Shown piece after piece: positions 33,957 to 56,379 of a DNA stretch of 64,000 nucleotides. Source of the stretch: Thalassomonas actiniarum (GTDB lineage: Bacteria; Pseudomonadota; Gammaproteobacteria; Enterobacterales; Alteromonadaceae); NCBI RefSeq assembly GCF_000948975.2, contig NZ_CP059735.1, positions 6,012,603 through 6,076,602 on the forward strand, written 5' to 3'. The notes under the pieces were generated by a model that was not told the DNA's origin, did no database searches, and worked only from the letters and a program-made list of their open reading frames with translations. The position numbers were made by a program, and so were the translations under genes. How positions within the stretch are numbered: position 1 is the first letter of the stretch; every line of letters begins with the position of its first letter.

Positions 33957-34604
33957 ATGTTTACCCGCTGGCAAAACCCCCTGATCTACAGCCTGGCCTT
34001 TAGTAGTGGTTTCACTATCATGGGCATAGAACTCCTGGGAGGACGGATCCTGGCGCCCTTTTTCGGCAGCAGCATACATATCTGGGGCAGTATCATTACC
34101 GTGTTTATGGTGAGCTTATCCTTCGGTTACCTGCTCGGCGGCAAATTCTCTACCCGCAATGCCTCCCTGAAACGCTTCGGTATCATCTATTTGCTCGGCG
34201 GCATCTTTATTTTACCTATCGCCTTATATGCCAATGAGATCATGCAGGCGATTTTCCTGCAGATAGAAGACAGCCGCTACGGCTCGTTATTGGCCGCCAG
34301 CGCCTTGTTTTTCCTGCCGACAGTGATCCTCGGCATGTTATCTCCCTATTCGGTACGGCTATTGGTCAAAAATAAAAACGAAAGCGGCCAGGTGGCGGGG
34401 ATCTTATATTTTGTCTCTACCCTAGGCAGCGCCCTGGGCACAATAACCACTTCCTTTTACCTGGTGCTCTATCTGGAGGTTAACCAGATTATTTTCACCT
34501 TCAGTGCCCTGCTGTTGCTGCTGGGACTGATCGCCATTGCCGCCGACAAAATAATCAAAAATACCGCTATCTCAGTAAAAGAACAGGAAGTCCATCATGT
34601 TTAA
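33957..34604 (+). CDS. Membrane protein, N-terminal half of a split spermidine-synthase-like protein
   Basis: A 215-residue integral membrane protein with about six helices. The opening (SLAFSSGFTIMGIELLGGRILAPFFG) matches the membrane domain fused to many bacterial spermidine-synthase-like proteins (the fused MFS/spermidine synthase type). Here the soluble enzyme is a separate gene that overlaps this one by eight bases. The pair probably acts as a complex. Substrate and reaction are unknown; these membrane forms are not proven polyamine enzymes. Confidence 0.75.
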   Translation: MFTRWQNPLIYSLAFSSGFTIMGIELLGGRILAPFFGSSIHIWGSIITVFMVSLSFGYLLGGKFSTRNASLKRFGIIYLLGGIFILPIALYANEIMQAIFLQIEDSRYGSLLAASALFFLPTVILGMLSPYSVRLLVKNKNESGQVAGILYFVSTLGSALGTITTSFYLVLYLEVNQIIFTFSALLLLLGLIAIAADKIIKNTAISVKEQEVHHV

Positions 34605-35505
34605 GCCCGCTTTACCGACACTGATGCTGTTATTGCTGGCAGCCTGCTCTCCCTGGCCCGGTAATGCCGAAGTTGTCCATAGCGAGCGCTCCCTGTACCG
34701 CAACATCATGGTGGAAGACAAGGGAGATTTGCGCTGCTTAAGGTTTAACGTCAAACAGAATAAATCCAACCAAAGCTGCCTTTACAAAAGCCAGCCGCAA
34801 CAGCTGGTGTTTAACTATACCAAGCTGCTGTTTTCCGGCTTAATGCTCAACAGCAAGCCAGGTAGCATACTTATCATAGGTCTGGGGGGCGGCACCATGT
34901 CCAATACCCTGCACCAGCTTTACCCGAAGGCGCGCATTGAAAATGTTGAAATAGATCCCGCGGTGATCAAGGTCGCCCGGGAGTACTTTGGCTTTTTCGA
35001 AAACGAACGCGTCACGGCAACCGATCAGGACGGACGATTATTTATCAAACGGGCGCTGATGAAAAAGCAGCAATACGACTGGATCATCCTGGACGCCTTT
35101 AACGGCGAATATATTCCCGAACACCTGCTGACACGGGAATTTCTGCTGGAAGCAAAACAACTGCTCAGCGACAAGGGGATTTTAACCTCCAATACTTTTT
35201 CCAACAGCGGTTTATACGCCTACGAATCCGCCACTTATTACGATGTTTTCGGCGATTACTTTAATGTTCGGAATAACAAAAACGAAAACCGCATTATTTT
35301 AACCGGCAAACAGCCGCTGCCGGATATCCAGACCCTGGGCCGGCGCCTGCCCGCCCTCGACCGGCAATTAAAACCTTTTGGCGTCGATATCAAAGAAATT
35401 TTCGCCCATATGACCCTGGCCTCACAGGAGCGCGACTGGCCGCAGGATACCCGGGTGTTAACGGATCAATACTCCCCGGCAAACCTGCTCAATATCGACA
35501 AATAG
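34597..35505 (+). CDS. Spermidine-synthase-like (SpeE-fold) protein with lipoprotein-type N-terminus
   Basis: A 302-residue protein with a Rossmann SAM-binding core: ILIIGLGGGTMSNTL (motif I), VEIDPAVIKVAREYF (acidic loop) and DWIILDAFNGEYIPEHL at the active site. This is the SpeE/aminopropyltransferase fold. The first 20 residues are hydrophobic and end in LAAC (Cys17), a lipobox, which is odd for an enzyme that uses a cytosolic cofactor. The region may instead be a membrane anchor left from splitting the fused protein. Translationally coupled to the upstream membrane gene. Confidence 0.8.
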   Translation: MFKPALPTLMLLLLAACSPWPGNAEVVHSERSLYRNIMVEDKGDLRCLRFNVKQNKSNQSCLYKSQPQQLVFNYTKLLFSGLMLNSKPGSILIIGLGGGTMSNTLHQLYPKARIENVEIDPAVIKVAREYFGFFENERVTATDQDGRLFIKRALMKKQQYDWIILDAFNGEYIPEHLLTREFLLEAKQLLSDKGILTSNTFSNSGLYAYESATYYDVFGDYFNVRNNKNENRIILTGKQPLPDIQTLGRRLPALDRQLKPFGVDIKEIFAHMTLASQERDWPQDTRVLTDQYSPANLLNIDK

Positions 35506-35868
35506 TTGGGTAAGACTAAGCCATAAACATCAGACAGATAGCAGGCAGCTCCCGGCGCCCCCAGGCGCCACCCGCCGGGACAAAACTAAACCCGTCAAAA
35601 ATAAATACTGCTACAACAAATAGTTAAAAACTGTGATCTCCGTCAGCAATTGCCTGCGAATTACAATTTAACCGTAGTTTTTGATTTCTTTTTAGCCTAT
35701 ATTAGGTATAAATAATTTGGCGTAAAAGAATACCAAACTGATTTATTCAATGTACACCCGCCGGCTTTAAGAGCCTGGGATAAAAGGATTTTCTGTACAT
35801 CTGGTATATCTACATTCAGCAGATTTTGTGCGGTTATCGGCTTGGTATCATCTACCTGGAGAGATAAA
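35506..35868 (+). promoter_or_regulatory. Intergenic region before the tubulin-like gene
   Basis: The gap begins with a strong GC hairpin, TCCCGGCG (35550-35557) with CGCCGGGA (35573-35580), likely closing the preceding pair although no T run follows. The rest is AT-rich and probably carries the promoter and a long leader for the tubulin-like gene. No small gene is supported. Confidence 0.5.
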
Positions 35869-38169
35869 ATGCAGTCAAAGAAGTCTCAAACTCGTCCGCT
35901 TGGCCCCCAACGCGCAGGCAGGGTAAAACCGACCCCCGAACCTGCGGTTGAAGCCAGCGATGATTTTGACGTAATTGTCAAAGAGCCCCAGAGTGAGCTA
36001 TTACTTAAGGATAAACACAGCAACACTCCGTATATGTATTTTACCGAAAAGGATCTGTCGAGGATCCTGAAAAATCTCGATGTCCTGCGCAGCGAAGTTT
36101 ACCCCAGCGAACACAACCAGGAAGAAAGCGAGCGTAAATTACCCAACTTCCCTTCGGTGTGTTTGATCGGTCTGGGGCGCTGCGGCTCCAATATCGCCCT
36201 GGATGTCGCCTCCCTGGTACATAACGCCCGCAACTTTTACCTGACAGAGTTTAACCACGAACAAAAACAGGCTAAAGAAAAAGAAGCGCGGCCGGTAAAA
36301 TGGATCCAGCGCAGCCTGAAACTCCAGCAAAAGAAAACCGTCAAGCCGGTATTTTTAATCGAGCCCCTGGTAATGCTCGGGGATCTGGATAAAGATATTG
36401 AAGGCCGTATCCGCTTCTCGTCAAAAGGCATAGACAATGACTTTTTGCGGGAATACAACAAGCTGAAAATCATGGACCTGTCGGAAGTCCATGCCGGCGG
36501 CGCCGGTAACGCCCCGATTTTAGGCCAGTACCTGGCAAAAATTATTCTCAATAAAGACACCGAGCATTTCAGCAACTCCGACTGGAAATTTATCCACTCC
36601 TATCTTATCGATTCCTGCGGCATCAAGGCCAACCAGTCGCGGCTGTATTTTTATATTTTCAGCGCCGGCGGCGGTACCGGCTCGGGCATGGCCTCGGAAT
36701 TCGGCCTGGCCCAGCAATACTCCTATATGAGTAAAACCTTTGATATCCGTCCGGAAAAAGAGCTGGTCAGCCAGAACCAGTCTTTCGTGTTTGAGCCGAT
36801 CTTTACCAGCGGCATCTGTATCTTACCGAATATCACCGACCAGGGCGTGGAAATGTCGGAAGCCCTGCATATCAATGCCGGACGCCTGCTGTGTAAATAC
36901 CTGTCGGAGGAATGGAATTTTTCCTACAACATGGACAACGAAGACAGCACCTCGGAAAATGTCATGCGCCGTATCCGGCCGTGGAATTCCATGATGCTGA
37001 TCTCCAACGACATCATGCGCTACGCCGAGCAAAACGACTCCGACGGCGGCATCCAGCATATCGATGTCAATGCCATGGAAAAACACGCCAACCAGTATAT
37101 CAGCCAGCAGATCTTTAATATCTTAACCGCCCAGGCGGTGACCACAGACTACGACGAAAACTACTTCCGCCGCGCCGGCATCGATATCGGCGAAACCATA
37201 CGCCTGGATGCCAACGATCTCTTTATGAGCCTGGCAGGCCCGGTGGCCATCGCCTACGCCGAATCTGTGGTGGCAGACAGCAGCCAGCCGGCAGAAAGTA
37301 AACTTAAGCTCGGCAACAGCGAGCAGCTGATATTAGATATTGACGATCTCTTTTACCGCTCCATCGACCTGCCCCACTACAACAAGCAGACCCAGGCGAT
37401 AGAAGGAGTAAGTTTATTACCGGTGGAATCCGCGCGTTACCGGGAGGCACTGCGCCAGTACAAGGATTCCAACTATAATGCCAAGCACCTCTCGGATCTG
37501 CATTTCTTTAAGAACTGCTCTTCCGTGGTGTCGATTATCTCACTACCCAAAGACTATAAACTCTCTTATATGGATCTGAACAAGCTGAAAATGCACCTTA
37601 ACAGCCTGTTCCCCAATACCACCTTAAAACGTTATGCCTTAGTGATAGGGGCCTCCGCCAACCTGTCGTTGACCACTTTAATCGCCAAAAGTCCGTGTTT
37701 AAGCGATGACTTCCTGACCCTGATCGTCGCTTATATCAAACGTTGCTTTGCCAAGGACGACCACAGGTTTGACGATTCCCTCGACAAGGCCATTATCGAC
37801 TTTATCCGCGCGCCGGTCTTTAACGAAAGTAAGCTTGAAGCCATGCTGGTGGAAAATGAAAATCCGGCCAAGATACTCGATACCAACTGGTATGCCATCA
37901 AACCTATGTACGAGAAGAAATATCGCGAGTTAATTCAGGACGGTAAAAAGTTTACTTCCATCAATGATATCCGCCTGACCTTGGACTGCGTAAAAAAATC
38001 CATCCATTACCTGCGGGAAATCTATCGCCATAAAATCAGCAAAACCAAAATTATCTCCCTTAATGATAACTTTAGTTTTTCTGAGGAGCTATCGGAGCAG
38101 AAACCGGCTAAGGCAAGAAAGAGTAAAAAACAAGATATCAAAGAAGAGGATATCAAAGAGGACGAATAA
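35869..38169 (+). CDS. Tubulin/FtsZ-superfamily GTPase-like protein (divergent)
   Basis: A 766-residue soluble protein, about twice the length of FtsZ. Start at the ATG at 35869, preceded by GGAGAG at a good distance; a TTG 27 bases upstream is less likely. Residues 99-110, LIGLGRCGSNIA, form the first nucleotide loop, and SAGGGTGSGMASEFG (265-279) is the tubulin/FtsZ signature GGGTGSG. Further on, IRLDANDLFMSLAGP aligns with the FtsZ T7 loop (VDFADV), keeping the two catalytic aspartates as D447 and D450. A 90-residue disordered N-terminus, an insertion of about 100 residues between the first loop and the signature, a C-terminal extension of about 250 residues and a Lys/Glu tail are unlike FtsZ. 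It is monocistronic, with a terminator behind it. Closest known groups are probably the FtsZ-like and Tubulin_2 families; role unknown. Confidence 0.82.
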   Translation: MQSKKSQTRPLGPQRAGRVKPTPEPAVEASDDFDVIVKEPQSELLLKDKHSNTPYMYFTEKDLSRILKNLDVLRSEVYPSEHNQEESERKLPNFPSVCLIGLGRCGSNIALDVASLVHNARNFYLTEFNHEQKQAKEKEARPVKWIQRSLKLQQKKTVKPVFLIEPLVMLGDLDKDIEGRIRFSSKGIDNDFLREYNKLKIMDLSEVHAGGAGNAPILGQYLAKIILNKDTEHFSNSDWKFIHSYLIDSCGIKANQSRLYFYIFSAGGGTGSGMASEFGLAQQYSYMSKTFDIRPEKELVSQNQSFVFEPIFTSGICILPNITDQGVEMSEALHINAGRLLCKYLSEEWNFSYNMDNEDSTSENVMRRIRPWNSMMLISNDIMRYAEQNDSDGGIQHIDVNAMEKHANQYISQQIFNILTAQAVTTDYDENYFRRAGIDIGETIRLDANDLFMSLAGPVAIAYAESVVADSSQPAESKLKLGNSEQLILDIDDLFYRSIDLPHYNKQTQAIEGVSLLPVESARYREALRQYKDSNYNAKHLSDLHFFKNCSSVVSIISLPKDYKLSYMDLNKLKMHLNSLFPNTTLKRYALVIGASANLSLTTLIAKSPCLSDDFLTLIVAYIKRCFAKDDHRFDDSLDKAIIDFIRAPVFNESKLEAMLVENENPAKILDTNWYAIKPMYEKKYRELIQDGKKFTSINDIRLTLDCVKKSIHYLREIYRHKISKTKIISLNDNFSFSEELSEQKPAKARKSKKQDIKEEDIKEDE

Positions 38170-38187
38170 ACTTACGGTAAAACACCA

Positions 38188-38220
38188 CAAGCCAGCATTT
38201 TTTGCTGGCTTGTTGCTTTC
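38188..38220. terminator. Intrinsic terminator after the tubulin-like gene
   Basis: CAAGCCAGCA pairs perfectly with TGCTGGCTTG around a T-rich 5-base loop, followed by TTGCTTTC. It also faces the convergent rluF gene. Confidence 0.8.
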
Positions 38221-38243: not shown

Positions 38244-39236
38244 CTAAGGCTTAGGTTTTGTCGGGCGCTTTAAAGTTAAAGTGCTTCCCGAAGGTTTTTT
38301 TCGGGTATTGACGATTTTCACTAAACCTTTATCTTTGCCTGCTTGTCGCTTGTTATCGGCTCTTTTCTCTGCATTTTTATCATCCTGGACCCGGCTCTTT
38401 TTATTTTCTCCCCGCCACTTACCCGATGTTTTCGGTTTAAGCTCATTTTTCACCTCTACCCGAATCTCGGCTTTATCTTTGGATAAGGCGGTATCGGCTG
38501 CGGTTTTACTGGACCCCGCCACCGCAGCATTGATTTCCGCCATTTCCTGCGCCGTCAAATCCCGCCACTGGCCGGGTCTGAGTTTTTCCAGGGTAACATT
38601 CATGATCCGGGTGCGTTTTAGTTTTTTCACTTCATAACCCAGGTATTCACACATACGACGGATCTGCCGGTTTAACCCTTGGGTCAGGATAATACGAAAG
38701 ACAAAGCGGCTTTGCATTTTTACCTGGCACGGCTGGGTAATGGTGCCGAGAATAGGCACCCCTTTTGACATACGCTCAATAAAACGCTCACTGACAGGCT
38801 TATCAACGGTAACCACATATTCCTTGTCGTGGGCATTTTCCGCCCGCAGGATCTTGTTGACGATATCACCATCACTGGTAAGGAAAATCAAGCCTTCCGA
38901 AGGTTTGTCCAAACGGCCTATCGGGAATATACGTTCTTTATGGCGGATGGCATCGATAATATTGCCTCTGACATGGCGCTCTGTGGTACAGGTAATGCCT
39001 ATCGGTTTATTGTAGGCAATATAGATACGATCAGATTTGTTCTGTGCACTGGCATTAATTTGTTTACCGTCCACTTCTACGGTATCGCCGGGTAATACTT
39101 TAGTGCCCAACTCGGGATGTTTACCGTTAATGGTAACCCGGTTTTTTTCGATCAGCTTATCCGCTTCCCGGCGGGAGCAAAAGCCCGACTCACTGATAAA
39201 TTTATTCAGGCGTTTTTCATTGCTGCTCACGGACAC
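38244..39236 (-). CDS. rluF: 23S rRNA pseudouridine(2604) synthase RluF
   Basis: A 330-residue RsuA-family pseudouridine synthase. An S4 RNA-binding domain covers residues 7-60 (RLNKFISESGFCSRREADKLI). The catalytic motif is GRLDKPSEGLIFLTSDG with Asp110. Conserved LTQGLNRQIRRMCEYLGY follows. About 90 residues of basic, low-complexity C-terminal tail (Lys/Arg/Ser-rich) extend past the fold, as in several marine relatives. RluF rather than RluB/RluE is chosen from the NKPIGITCTTERH and QGLNRQIRRMCEYLGY patterns. Confidence 0.9.
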   Translation of the reverse strand: MSVSSNEKRLNKFISESGFCSRREADKLIEKNRVTINGKHPELGTKVLPGDTVEVDGKQINASAQNKSDRIYIAYNKPIGITCTTERHVRGNIIDAIRHKERIFPIGRLDKPSEGLIFLTSDGDIVNKILRAENAHDKEYVVTVDKPVSERFIERMSKGVPILGTITQPCQVKMQSRFVFRIILTQGLNRQIRRMCEYLGYEVKKLKRTRIMNVTLEKLRPGQWRDLTAQEMAEINAAVAGSSKTAADTALSKDKAEIRVEVKNELKPKTSGKWRGENKKSRVQDDKNAEKRADNKRQAGKDKGLVKIVNTRKKPSGSTLTLKRPTKPKP

Positions 39237-53635: not shown

Positions 53636-54002
53636 AATCAAATCACTTTTATAGTTTTATAGCGCTAAAGAGCGGGGCTAATTTTTATTTTTATTTTTAG
53701 CTACTATAAATAAAATTGATTCAATAACCTACTAAAAGTGTATAGACAAGTCGGTAAAATTGTATACAAATATTGGCGGTTTGGCTGATAATGGTGAGGA
53801 GAGTTTTAATTTCACGCCTGGGAAATGAAATAATATTTTTTCAGCCCTGTGGCCGATAACAGCCATGTTTAATTTTTTTGACCCAAACGCTATCTTACAG
53901 TTTCTCCCTAAATCTTGATATATCCTGGTAATTTACATAGCAAGCCATTGCTATTCTCGAATATCTCAAGTCTCGTTATGTAACACAGTCAATTGGATTG
54001 AA

Positions 54003-54021
54003 ACCAGTAATAATTACTGGT
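54003..54021 (+). promoter_or_regulatory. Perfect palindrome upstream of the NDT/TIR-like gene
   Basis: ACCAGTAAT-A-ATTACTGGT, two perfect 9-base arms around a single A. It lies 106 bases before the predicted start of the next gene. Likely an operator; regulator unknown. Confidence 0.55.
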
Positions 54022-54070
54022 AACTTATTCAATATATTATAAAAAAAGATATAAAAAGTGGATTAGCGTA

Positions 54071-54086
54071 AAATTGTCGACAATTT
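54071..54086 (+). promoter_or_regulatory. Perfect 16-base palindrome near the start of the NDT/TIR-like gene
   Basis: AAATTGTC-GACAATTT with no spacer, flanked by GATTA and TAATC that extend the symmetry. It is 40 bases before the TTG start, where it would overlap a promoter or the leader. Confidence 0.5.
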
Positions 54087-54126
54087 AATCCTAAATACAC
54101 TTATGCACTCCAAGGAGGGCCTAGCA

Positions 54127-54957
54127 TTGGCTAAAAACACAAAAAAAGATTGTTTCATTATTATGCCAATTGCTGATGTTGATGGATATGCATCTGGTCA
54201 TTTTGGACATGTATATGAAAATATTATTAAGCCATCATGTGACTTGGCTGGATACAATTCGCTCAGGGCTGATGAAGTTAAAGAAACGAATCTAATCCAT
54301 CTAGATATTCTGAAGAAACTCATCGAAGCACCAATGGCAATTTGTGATTTAAGTAATAGAAATCCTAACGTGCTTTTTGAATTAGGAATTAGACAAGCAT
54401 TTGACAAACCAGTTGTTCTAATACAAGAGAAAGGTACGCCAAAAATATTCGATATCGCTCCTCTGAGATACATAGAGTATTCAAAGGAGATGAAATACCA
54501 TGAAGTGCTAAACATGCAACAAGAGCTAAAAAGTTCTCTTGAAGCTACAGCGGCCGCTGAATCAGATACTACCAATATCAATTCTATTGTTAAGCTTCTT
54601 GCCTTAAATACTCCTGCACAATTACCAGACTTGGAAAATGGTAAAGAAAGTATGGCTCTCGAATACCTACAAGCTGAAATGCAAGATATGAGAAAGATGG
54701 TTGAGATTTCAATGATGGAGAGTAAAAACCCCCGTCGTCGAGGTTCAATTAGTGCATACGAATATGAGCGTATTTCTAAGGAAGTCGAAAAGTTGACTGA
54801 CAATATGGCAAGAACAAAAATACCAGATGCTGAGAGGCATAATCGGTTGAATATGCTGATGAGAGAAGCAGAGGAGTTAATGATGCATTGTGTAGAGAAG
54901 GCAGATCACATGCACTTCAGACGTTTAATTGAACGAATTAAAAGAGCTGAAGCATAA
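54127..54957 (+). CDS. Nucleoside 2-deoxyribosyltransferase/TIR-like protein
   Basis: About 276 residues. I prefer the TTG at 54127 because a strong AAGGAGG precedes it by nine bases; the ATG at 54103 would place that site inside the gene. The N-terminal 120 residues match a widespread family: DCFIIMPIA, HVYENIIKPSCDLAGYNSL, RADEVKETNL, ICDLSNRNPNVLFELGI and KPVVLIQEKG. The fold is that of nucleoside deoxyribosyltransferases and TIR-like NADases, and the Glu in NVLFELGI is in the catalytic position. The rest is helical with coiled-coil tendency and an Arg-rich patch. Related proteins occur in defence and signalling loci. First gene of an AT-rich island. Confidence 0.65.
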   Translation: MAKNTKKDCFIIMPIADVDGYASGHFGHVYENIIKPSCDLAGYNSLRADEVKETNLIHLDILKKLIEAPMAICDLSNRNPNVLFELGIRQAFDKPVVLIQEKGTPKIFDIAPLRYIEYSKEMKYHEVLNMQQELKSSLEATAAAESDTTNINSIVKLLALNTPAQLPDLENGKESMALEYLQAEMQDMRKMVEISMMESKNPRRRGSISAYEYERISKEVEKLTDNMARTKIPDAERHNRLNMLMREAEELMMHCVEKADHMHFRRLIERIKRAEA

Positions 54958-54997
54958 CTTACATAACAAGTGTGTCATGCTCCTTAAGTTATTAAGT
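54957..54997 (+). other. Stem-loop immediately after the NDT/TIR-like gene
   Basis: ACTTA-ATAAC-AAG pairs with CTT-GTTAT-TAAGT with small bulges and a 12-base loop, starting at the stop codon. No T tract follows, so it is not a classic terminator. It may be an RNA processing site or a decayed recombination site. Confidence 0.45.
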
Positions 54998-55018
54998 CGA
55001 AAAAGTTAAAGGATTAAT

Positions 55019-55207
55019 ATGGAAAACGAAGAAGTTATATATGAGTTTGAAGGTCAAAAATTACGAGCAGAGTACACTCTGTTTGATGATACTTTAACTA
55101 CTTATCTACCTGATGGCTCAAATCGAAAAACAGAGTTGAGAGGGTTAAAACCTGAGCTTGCTGCATTAATGCACTTAAAGATTTATACGCAAAAATCGAG
55201 TACATAA
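55019..55207 (+). CDS. Small hypothetical protein of the accessory island
   Basis: A 62-residue, acidic soluble protein (MENEEVIYEFEGQKLRAEY ... LRGLKPELAALMHL). An AAAGGAT motif precedes the ATG by six bases, which supports expression. No recognised family. Its stop lies within the left end of the attC-like palindrome, a common arrangement in gene cassettes. AT-rich like its neighbours. Confidence 0.55.
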   Translation: MENEEVIYEFEGQKLRAEYTLFDDTLTTYLPDGSNRKTELRGLKPELAALMHLKIYTQKSST

Positions 55208-55287
55208 CAGATTGCTCAAGTTTATTTCGGGCCTTCAGTCCTCCACGGGACGCATACTGCGTAGGCGCCCCTTAGCAAAGCGTAGGC
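55202..55287 (+). other. attC-like imperfect palindrome (integron cassette site candidate)
   Basis: The left end reads TAACAG then TGCTCAAG (55213-55220). The right end reads CTTAGCA (55271-55277) then AAGCGTAGGC. The inner boxes pair except for one extra G on the left arm, the pattern of the unpaired base in integron attC sites. The right core is GCGT-AGGC, one T short of GCGTTAGGC. Between them lies a GC-rich variable stretch with an ACGCA-TAC-TGCGT hairpin. The stop codon of one gene falls in the left box, and the next gene starts 19 bases after the right box, as in cassettes. No integrase is visible. Confidence 0.4.
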
Positions 55288-55305
55288 AATCAAAAAAGGT
55301 GTTTT

Positions 55306-56379
55306 ATGTCATCTTTAGGAATTATTAATGCAGAAAGGCTCATGCTACTTCCTGAAAAATATTGGAAGTCTCACGAGTTTTGTTTTTATCTTCACGATAA
55401 ATTAGCAACCATGTTGGTAGAGTATGACGCCCACGGTGTACAAGATATGGTTGTTGATGCATTTCATGAAGCCGCAAAAGGAAAGGAAGACAAACTTAGT
55501 GACATAAACCTTCTTGAGTTCATGAAAGAAAACAAGTTGGTCGAACCCTATAAACATCATTTGGTTAGCCATACTGTCATAGCATTGACCTCTGATATGC
55601 TTCATTTTTTATATGAAGCCTTAAGTTGCTTTGAGAAAAGAAAGTTCTCAGTCGCATTTTCCTTACTTAGAAAACCTCTTAAAGAGCATTTGTTTTTTCT
55701 CTCATGGATATTAGCAGACGAAGATGACTTTGTTTCTAGGTTTGAAGCAAATAACCATGTGAGCTTTAGCGGCGTAACTAAAGAAACAAGAATTGATATT
55801 ATTGAAAAAGCAATAAAGAAGTTACATGTTGGGGATGCCTTTGATGCGGAGATGATTTGGAATTATGTGTATTCTAAAAAACATGAAAATGGATTTGAAC
55901 CAACTTGGCAAAGAGCTACGCATTTAACAACCTCTCAAGGAGAGCTTCTAAAAACGGAAGACTATTCATTAAACTTTATATTTGAAGATGTTTTTGATGA
56001 TTATTACTTTGAATTTTTGAGCAAAAATTTACCATACATTTTTCTATATATTACTCAAGTCACCTTAGAGTGCTTTAATCGTATTCATGAAGTTAATGAT
56101 AAGACGGCTTCACATCTAATTTTAACAATGATGGGTTGTTATGAAGCGCTGTTTTTAGATGGTAGAGGAATGAGTATCAGTAAAATGCTACAAAAAAAAC
56201 TAGGAAGCATGTTGAGTTGTATGCACTGTAAATCAGATTTCAAAATTAATAAAAGCAATGCTCCTAGCTTGTATCTGCATGAGTTTTTTGTATGTAAAAA
56301 ATGTGGGTTAAAATCAGAATTTCCACTTTATTGGTTGTTAGCTAAAGCTAACATGGTACTAACAAAAGATGATGAGTAA
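55306..56379 (+). CDS. Hypothetical protein with C-terminal zinc ribbon
   Basis: A 357-residue protein of unrecognised family. Mostly helical (residues 30-270) and rich in aromatic and acidic residues, with no signal peptide or clear membrane helix. Near the end, LSCMHCKSDF and FVCKKCGLKSEF form a four-cysteine zinc ribbon. GAAAA/AAGGTG precedes the ATG. Part of the AT-rich island; codon use differs clearly from the flanking genes, pointing to transfer. Could be a partner of the NDT/TIR-like protein, but only position suggests this. Confidence 0.65.
   Translation: MSSLGIINAERLMLLPEKYWKSHEFCFYLHDKLATMLVEYDAHGVQDMVVDAFHEAAKGKEDKLSDINLLEFMKENKLVEPYKHHLVSHTVIALTSDMLHFLYEALSCFEKRKFSVAFSLLRKPLKEHLFFLSWILADEDDFVSRFEANNHVSFSGVTKETRIDIIEKAIKKLHVGDAFDAEMIWNYVYSKKHENGFEPTWQRATHLTTSQGELLKTEDYSLNFIFEDVFDDYYFEFLSKNLPYIFLYITQVTLECFNRIHEVNDKTASHLILTMMGCYEALFLDGRGMSISKMLQKKLGSMLSCMHCKSDFKINKSNAPSLYLHEFFVCKKCGLKSEFPLYWLLAKANMVLTKDDE

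Follow-up and report, generated by a model that had tools for sequence, protein, structure and literature searches.

The window, a 64,000-nucleotide stretch of the Thalassomonas actiniarum genome, contains a gene for a large protein that is referred to below as FtsZl2-type (Table 1). Its start is placed at the ATG at 35869 in preference to the TTG at 35842 proposed by the open reading frame listing, because a GGAGA precedes this ATG at 35858-35862 and because the consensus of 39 relatives likewise opens with M-x-x-K. The gene is real, and it has a copy number of one in its own genome (7.49 Mb, two contigs). An earlier note on this DNA had described the gene as solitary, and its surroundings bear this out: 363 bp separate it from the end of the upstream gene, the downstream neighbour is the convergent rluF, and the canonical FtsZ of the same genome, a protein of about 390 amino acids, is encoded ~333 kb away. 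Upstream lie uvrA and two MFS/spermidine synthase-type genes. These two genes overlap (33957-35505, plus strand), and each corresponds to a different half of NF037959, the model for the fused MFS/spermidine synthase, as if one protein had been split; the second half has, by eye, a lipoprotein-like start. Neither a tRNA nor an Rfam match reaching the gathering score occurs in the window.

Table 1. Features of the FtsZl2-type gene and its protein, with positions in the window
Feature	Residues	Nucleotides	Strand	Remarks
CDS of FtsZl2-type protein, very probably of the tubulin superfamily	1-766	35869..38169, stop codon included	+	766 aa
Variable N-terminal extension	1-53	35869..36027	+	Alignment A1 (39 sequences); almost missing from some relatives
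T1 nucleotide loop GLGRCGSN	101-108	36169..36192	+	PF00091 positions 2-40 fall on residues 97-134
T3-like loop AGGAGNAPILG	209-219	36493..36525	+	Aligned with FtsZ GAGANPEIG
T4 tubulin signature GGGTGSG	267-273	36667..36687	+	Motif conservation
Candidate T6 loop LISND	377-381	36997..37011	+	By eye; block test gives no support
Candidate helix H7	407-425	37087..37143	+	By eye; block test gives no support
T7 loop RLDANDL, with catalytic-type D447 and D450	445-451	37201..37221	+	Motif conservation; block score not above controls
C-terminal region	466-766	37264..38166	+	Many invariant residues to about residue 732
Variable charged tail	734-766	38068..38166	+	Missing in many relatives
Hairpin between convergent genes		38187..38213	.	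Terminator-like on the minus strand

The three motifs singled out in the earlier note are present in the protein, with GLGRCGSN at residue 101, GGGTGSG at residue 267 and LDAND at residue 446. Their conservation was read from alignment A4, in which 139 sequences (L018 and L091 fell out) were reduced to 84 by thinning at 97% and to 83 by removal of L015. In A4, the T1 glycines and N108 are invariant in 83/83 relatives, as are N380 and D381 of the candidate T6, N408 of the candidate H7, and R445, where FtsZ has Asn. GGGTGSG is identical in all 83 after manual exclusion of L015, whose T4 is altered. D447 and D450 are likewise invariant in 83/83, in a set that was not selected on that motif. A further set of 133 sequences comprises 137 loci minus L015, L018, L083 and L091; it is preselected on two motifs, since the filter asked for GGGTGSGM and LDAND, while L083 and L091 read MDAND, and L015 and L018 differ beyond T4. 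In this preselected set, 271 of the 766 positions are invariant.

The T1-T4 span covers 166 residues, compared to 88 in the genome's own FtsZ, and the T4-T7 span covers 179 compared to 103. This means that inserts lie on both sides of T4, where the earlier note had named one large insert. Counted from where the T7 motif begins, 321 residues remain to the C-terminus, compared to 181 in FtsZ. The large C-terminal part was also correctly noticed, although its length is nearer 300 residues than 250. Stretches of this region, such as residues 580-594 and 670-684, are as frozen as the GTPase motifs, and the region is therefore taken to be part of the machine. It has no significant match in Pfam, NCBIfam or PDB.

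Membership in the tubulin/FtsZ superfamily is very probable on the strength of motifs and profiles. The window protein matches PF00091 (Tubulin) at E 0.054 over residues 97-134, with 14.2 bits against a gathering score of 33, and PF13809 (Tubulin_2) at E 0.066 over residues 211-283, with 12.9 bits against a gathering score of 27. Across 39 relatives, PF00091 matches 39/39 and PF13809 matches 37/39 when E values up to 1 are counted, the best being 0.0007 and 0.0005. For the seven proteins with printed scores, the Pfam tubulin scores range from 12.9 to 18.6 bits, below the curated cut-offs of 33 and 27, and none of the members scanned is called by a Pfam or NCBIfam model; the window protein has no NCBIfam match and no PADLOC model match. 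For the consensus of 83 relatives, two tubulin-clan models rank first and second among 24,736 Pfam models, with E values of 0.0064 (core positions 156-327) and 0.011. They follow each other along the chain as expected, and the reversed consensus gives no hit in the same scan. The profile check proposed in the earlier note thus returns PF00091 and PF13809 as top hits of the consensus (E 0.006 and 0.011), but below the Pfam cut-offs.

Blocks of the family alignment were in addition compared with 30 FtsZ sequences, with windows from alignments of neighbouring genes as controls. The T3-T4 block (GAGNAPILG to GGGTGSG) outscores 117/117 control windows. The T1 block is not clearly above its controls, 13/221 of which score as high, and controls equal the T6-H7 block in 146/174 windows, the T7-H8 block in 100/230 and the S8-S10 block in 91/132. 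At T7, the six columns RLDAND align with NVDFAD of FtsZ, and therefore D447 and D450 fall at the positions of the FtsZ aspartates. This placement and their invariance agree with the assignment of D447 and D450 as T7 aspartates, and the claim of a large tubulin/FtsZ-like protein, 766 amino acids long compared to about 390 for FtsZ, likewise has sequence support. When profiles are compared, the probability of a match to FtsZ or Tubulin_2 is just 1.9 to 13.4%. Several other matches were set aside as chance-level: DUF6562 (E 0.0004, equal to the tubulin models, but in 13/39 members), an NCBIfam malate:quinone oxidoreductase model (weak, 10/30 members, best E 0.009), AbTIR in PDB (E 0.028), ribosomal protein L23 (E 0.7 and above) and two PHROGs whose function is not assigned (E 0.026 and 0.065). 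A reading by eye of C-terminal residues 545-610 as the strand-helix-strand-strand elements S8-H10-S9-S10 of FtsZ was not kept, since the profile test lends it no support (91/132 controls as good).

Structure prediction adds little to this picture. AlphaFold reached a mean pLDDT of 42.2 on alignment A1 (39 sequences) and of 49.8 on A4 (83 sequences, window residues 55-732). Members of the family resemble each other too closely (hhalign Neff about 1.9) for the alignment to be of much use in modelling. In the second model, parts of the C-terminal region form strands and helices with pLDDT of about 60-90, and the rest is poor. VIA-align lists no FtsZ or tubulin chain for either model, and the models are too poor for this to carry weight. 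The comparison of predicted folds suggested in the earlier note gives no answer for the same reason. Three extra searches for diverged members (matches in 1/3, 6/377 and 2/6 genomes) returned only sequences with at least 66% identity to the window protein, plus one doubtful match at E 0.02.

The earlier note had considered a new cytoskeletal or membrane-remodelling filament possible. The family is not new: one of this kind was described in 2010 by Makarova and Koonin, who found the proteobacterial family FtsZl2 by a search for GGGTG(S/T)G, with PFL_1302 of Pseudomonas fluorescens Pf-5 as its type (PMC2875224). The part of that paper drawn on here describes FtsZl2 as having T1, T4, T6, T7 and H7, inserts between T1 and T4, and a C-terminal region of about 300 amino acids that is mixed alpha/beta with no coiled coil and without relatives (PMC2875224). 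According to the same part, FtsZl2 has no associated genes and typically stands beside FtsZ, PFL_1302 was assigned to the tubulin superfamily by HHpred at E 0.0033, and filaments were predicted (PMC2875224). The window protein shares with this description the signature, T1, T4 and T7, the T1-T4 inserts, a long C-terminal region without known relatives, an FtsZ encoded alongside and neighbours that vary from lineage to lineage, while its T6 and H7 are candidates; among the features compared, no difference was found from the description in that part of the source (PMC2875224). We are therefore highly confident that the window protein is a member of FtsZl2, the match being to the family description and not to the PFL_1302 sequence.

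A search for the GGGTG(S/T)G motif in the DNA of nine whole genomes (seven Pseudomonas, Rheinheimera and Cellvibrio) agrees with this assignment. Of its 29 matches, 11 lack tubulin context; the others are nine FtsZ and nine FtsZl2-type genes, every genome contributing one of either kind, and in the seven Pseudomonas genomes the motif in tubulin context is confined to FtsZ and the FtsZl2-type protein. FtsZ is present in the window's own genome and in 9/9 other carriers checked. FtsZl2 is thus an already described family with a new member here, and it has apparently received no study since 2010. No later FtsZl2 work was found in the open-access literature, a scope that excludes preprints and most subscription journals. 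A 2023 study treats FtsZ-like proteins, in the part used here, as those with Tubulin_2 (PMC9871819), and the part of PMC2817675 used here mentions FtsZ alone of the tubulin relatives.

Compared to other tubulin-type systems, the FtsZl2-type protein resembles FtsZ (PF00091) in the order T1, T3, T4, T7, in the D-x-x-D of T7 and in the GAGxxPxxG and GGGTG loops. It differs in being twice as long, in falling under the PF00091 cut-off, in lying outside the division cluster and in being missing from many relatives, while FtsZ is encoded elsewhere in the genome. A canonical FtsZ was rejected on the PF00091 score (14.2 bits against 33) and the ~333 kb between the two genes. Large size and sub-threshold similarity around T3-T4 recall Tubulin_2, or FtsZl1 (PF13809), but hhalign with three Tubulin_2 members finds one 27-column stretch that lies outside the GTPase motifs. 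The partners reported for FtsZl1 (vWA, GTPase, OmpA) have no look-alike in the 22 recurrent neighbour clusters that were read, and this candidate was rejected with 12.9 bits for PF13809 against the gathering score of 27. Tubulin_2 proteins of FtsZl1 type that do exceed the Pfam cut-off occur at L140, L141 and L142, in 3/299 genomes of other Pseudomonadota. A tubulin-type T1 (G-x-G-x-C/A-G) and GGGTGSG are also found in TubZ, PhuZ and CetZ, and the window protein has both. TubZ and PhuZ are carried by a plasmid or phage together with a DNA-segregation partner; in contrast, the plasmids, phages and viral contigs searched hold no FtsZl2-type copy, and with no replicon-borne match these candidates were set aside.

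The protein family is large and unevenly distributed. Matches occur in 44/196 genomes (17/52 genera) of the taxonomic family to which the window's genome belongs, in 32/394 genomes (13/115 genera) of the order and in 2/369 genomes of the class, for which a second draw gave 6/377, one of them doubtful. A wider survey took one genome per species of 84,980 across all phyla and applied a peptide pattern followed by a check for a relative. It found 597 stretches with the pattern, of which at least 528 encode a relative, compared to ten sequences in the FtsZl2 tree of 2010 (PMC2875224). The record titles of the best 80 of these point to no phylum but Pseudomonadota, and the genera represented include Rheinheimera, Pseudomonas, Colwellia, Alkalimonas, Cellvibrio, Paraglaciecola and Alishewanella. 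There is no match at E 0.01 among 72,556 plasmid and 50,697 phage records, and of 27 pattern matches in viral contigs none was confirmed. The gene is patchy even within genera, with carriers and non-carriers side by side (for example g5, g9, g18 and g21 of that taxonomic family). Broken or fragmentary copies (G203, G338, G033 and G057, and at loci L015 and L018) speak for loss in progress. One genome, the metagenome-assembled NORP200 (G092; loci L062 and L065), appears to carry two copies, both with about 77% identity to the window protein, though such an assembly may be mixed.

Eighty loci were surveyed for neighbours, up to 10 kb on each side, and the gene was recognised in 76 of them; names of neighbours outside the window were assigned by reading the sequences. 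No universal neighbour was found within these limits, which agrees with the FtsZl2 description of 2010, in the part used here (PMC2875224). The commonest neighbour, at 26/80 loci, is an RluF-type pseudouridine synthase acting on 23S rRNA (in the window at 38244-39236, minus strand). It lies on the opposite strand at seven loci of the Colwellia group, as in the window, and on the same strand at 19 of the Rheinheimera group, and its adjacency may be an inherited ancestral site without evident functional reason. Electron-transfer flavoprotein genes lie upstream in 22 of 80 loci; in Pseudomonas the sets of neighbours are different. Of the 22 recurrent neighbour clusters that were read, all look like ordinary metabolic, signalling, transport or repair genes and none looks defence-like. 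No simple promoter pattern is shared by the 300 bp upstream of the 133 copies preselected on two motifs: a strict sigma54 pattern occurs in none, a LexA-like pattern in eight and a sigma28-like pattern in three, all in family f9. A very loose sigma54 pattern, present in 66 of 133 regions, is meaningless. What is new here is that the family is large, patchy, absent from the phages and plasmids searched, sometimes broken and without a constant partner gene, and that, between the window's genome and Pseudomonas, its conservation slightly exceeds that of FtsZ.

The protein is under strong purifying selection. Its identity to 38 relatives from the family and order is 60-86%. Against Marinifaba, 86% protein identity goes with 29% agreement at four-fold sites, and against Colwellia 75% goes with 25%: outside the genus, four-fold sites have reached saturation or come close to it. 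Agreement reaches up to 60% with G+C-rich genomes, which may be a matter of base composition.

Identities of FtsZ and of the FtsZl2-type protein were compared in ten genomes (45 pairs). Within the seven Pseudomonas, they are 0.83-0.97 for the FtsZl2-type protein and 0.90-0.99 for FtsZ, and against Rheinheimera they are 0.80 and 0.86. The order is reversed between the window's genome and the seven Pseudomonas (0.76-0.78 compared to 0.70-0.71) and between Rheinheimera and the seven Pseudomonas (0.79-0.81 compared to 0.71-0.72), and the two are about equal between Cellvibrio and Pseudomonas. The FtsZl2-type protein thus changes about as slowly as FtsZ. The crossing identities fit an old transfer between orders or a large share of frozen sites. 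In a tree made by a quick method, with long branches flagged, Paraglaciecola falls within the Rheinheimera/Alkalimonas group, and one genome from a different order falls within Pseudomonas; as a sign of horizontal transfer, these placements are only suggestive. Conservation at the level of FtsZ is unusual in a gene that is absent from close relatives, and it suggests a demanding but optional job. The best-studied proteins of the tubulin superfamily form filaments with a defined job, such as division, shape or DNA movement.

In FtsZ and tubulin, GTP is held on T1, T3 and T4; its hydrolysis is set off by the T7 aspartates that the neighbouring subunit contributes, and this gives rise to a dynamic filament. 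By analogy, the FtsZl2-type protein would bind GTP at its T1-T3-T4 site and stack head to tail, each subunit completing the GTPase site of its neighbour with D447 and D450. The retention of both aspartates in all A4 relatives is in line with such a mechanism and favours it, and GTP-driven polymerisation is judged somewhat likelier than its absence. The conserved C-terminal region, about 270 residues, might provide lateral contacts or bind cargo, and the variable N-terminal extension and charged tail might serve as tethers or length regulators. The invariant Arg445 and the inserts on both sides of T4 could alter the contacts. Division is unlikely to be the job, since FtsZ is encoded separately. 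Patchiness and broken copies suggest instead that the job is conditional. Because this is a single gene without a linked partner that comes and goes among close relatives, the protein would most likely serve a purpose other than division, one that is optional and conditional and draws on general host factors. A one-gene, GTP-driven FtsZl2 filament system with such a role is the best explanation of the observations and is held to be somewhat more likely than not. It is a more tentative idea, and on balance an unlikely one, that the gene is a complete one-gene cytoskeleton, in which a dynamic GTPase filament works without a dedicated adaptor, carries its own polymer-organising C-terminal domain of a kind not seen in FtsZ or tubulin, is retained in gammaproteobacteria for some conditional task and is passed between orders as one chromosomal gene.

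Alternatively, the protein could be a tubulin-fold GTP switch or scaffold that acts as a monomer or small oligomer without filaments. The inserts flanking T4 and the large C-terminal region could block head-to-tail stacking, and the invariant Arg445 stands where T7 of FtsZ has Asn. However, invariance of D447/D450 in 83/83 relatives is hard to explain without hydrolysis of a neighbour's GTP, and the prediction for FtsZl2, in the part of the source used here, is of filaments (PMC2875224). Such a switch is possible but unlikely. It is also conceivable that the protein is not related to tubulin at all, but is a glycine-rich protein, Rossmann-type or otherwise, in which GGGTGSG arose by chance. 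The poor structure models, the sub-threshold profiles and several blocks no better than controls leave room for this. A GxGxxG start is common among nucleotide-binding proteins, a weak malate:quinone oxidoreductase match occurs in 10/30 members, and the DUF6562 match rivals the tubulin models, yet in a minority of members. Chance would nevertheless have to place two tubulin-clan models at the top of the Pfam scan, ordered along the chain, with none in reverse, and to lift the T3-T4 block above every control. The 2010 HHpred verdict on PFL_1302 was the same (PMC2875224), and an origin outside the superfamily is very improbable.

Patchiness within genera, broken copies and the signs of horizontal transfer would also suit a mobile, optional chromosomal GTPase for anti-phage defence or stress response. 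Most defence genes, however, evolve less slowly than FtsZ, while this protein changes about as slowly. PADLOC finds nothing for the window protein and one weak match among 30 members (AbiEii, E 0.033), and none of the recurrent neighbour clusters is defence-like, one-off neighbours being left out of that count. A defence or stress role is accordingly improbable. The patchy distribution and tubulin-type motifs could equally be read as a plasmid or phage DNA segregation system like TubZ or PhuZ. This reading is largely refuted and barely credible: the plasmid, phage and viral-contig searches described above confirmed no copy, the window copy sits among chromosomal genes (uvrA, rluF), and recurrent neighbours elsewhere are alike. 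The FtsZl2 filament system is preferred to all of these readings, and carriers of FtsZl2-type genes include named species of Pseudomonas, Rheinheimera and Colwellia.

Elsewhere in the window, positions 54001-56000 have a G+C content of 0.36 and a reversed GC skew, compared to a G+C content of 0.44-0.55 in the other 2-kb steps, and this stretch is possibly foreign DNA.
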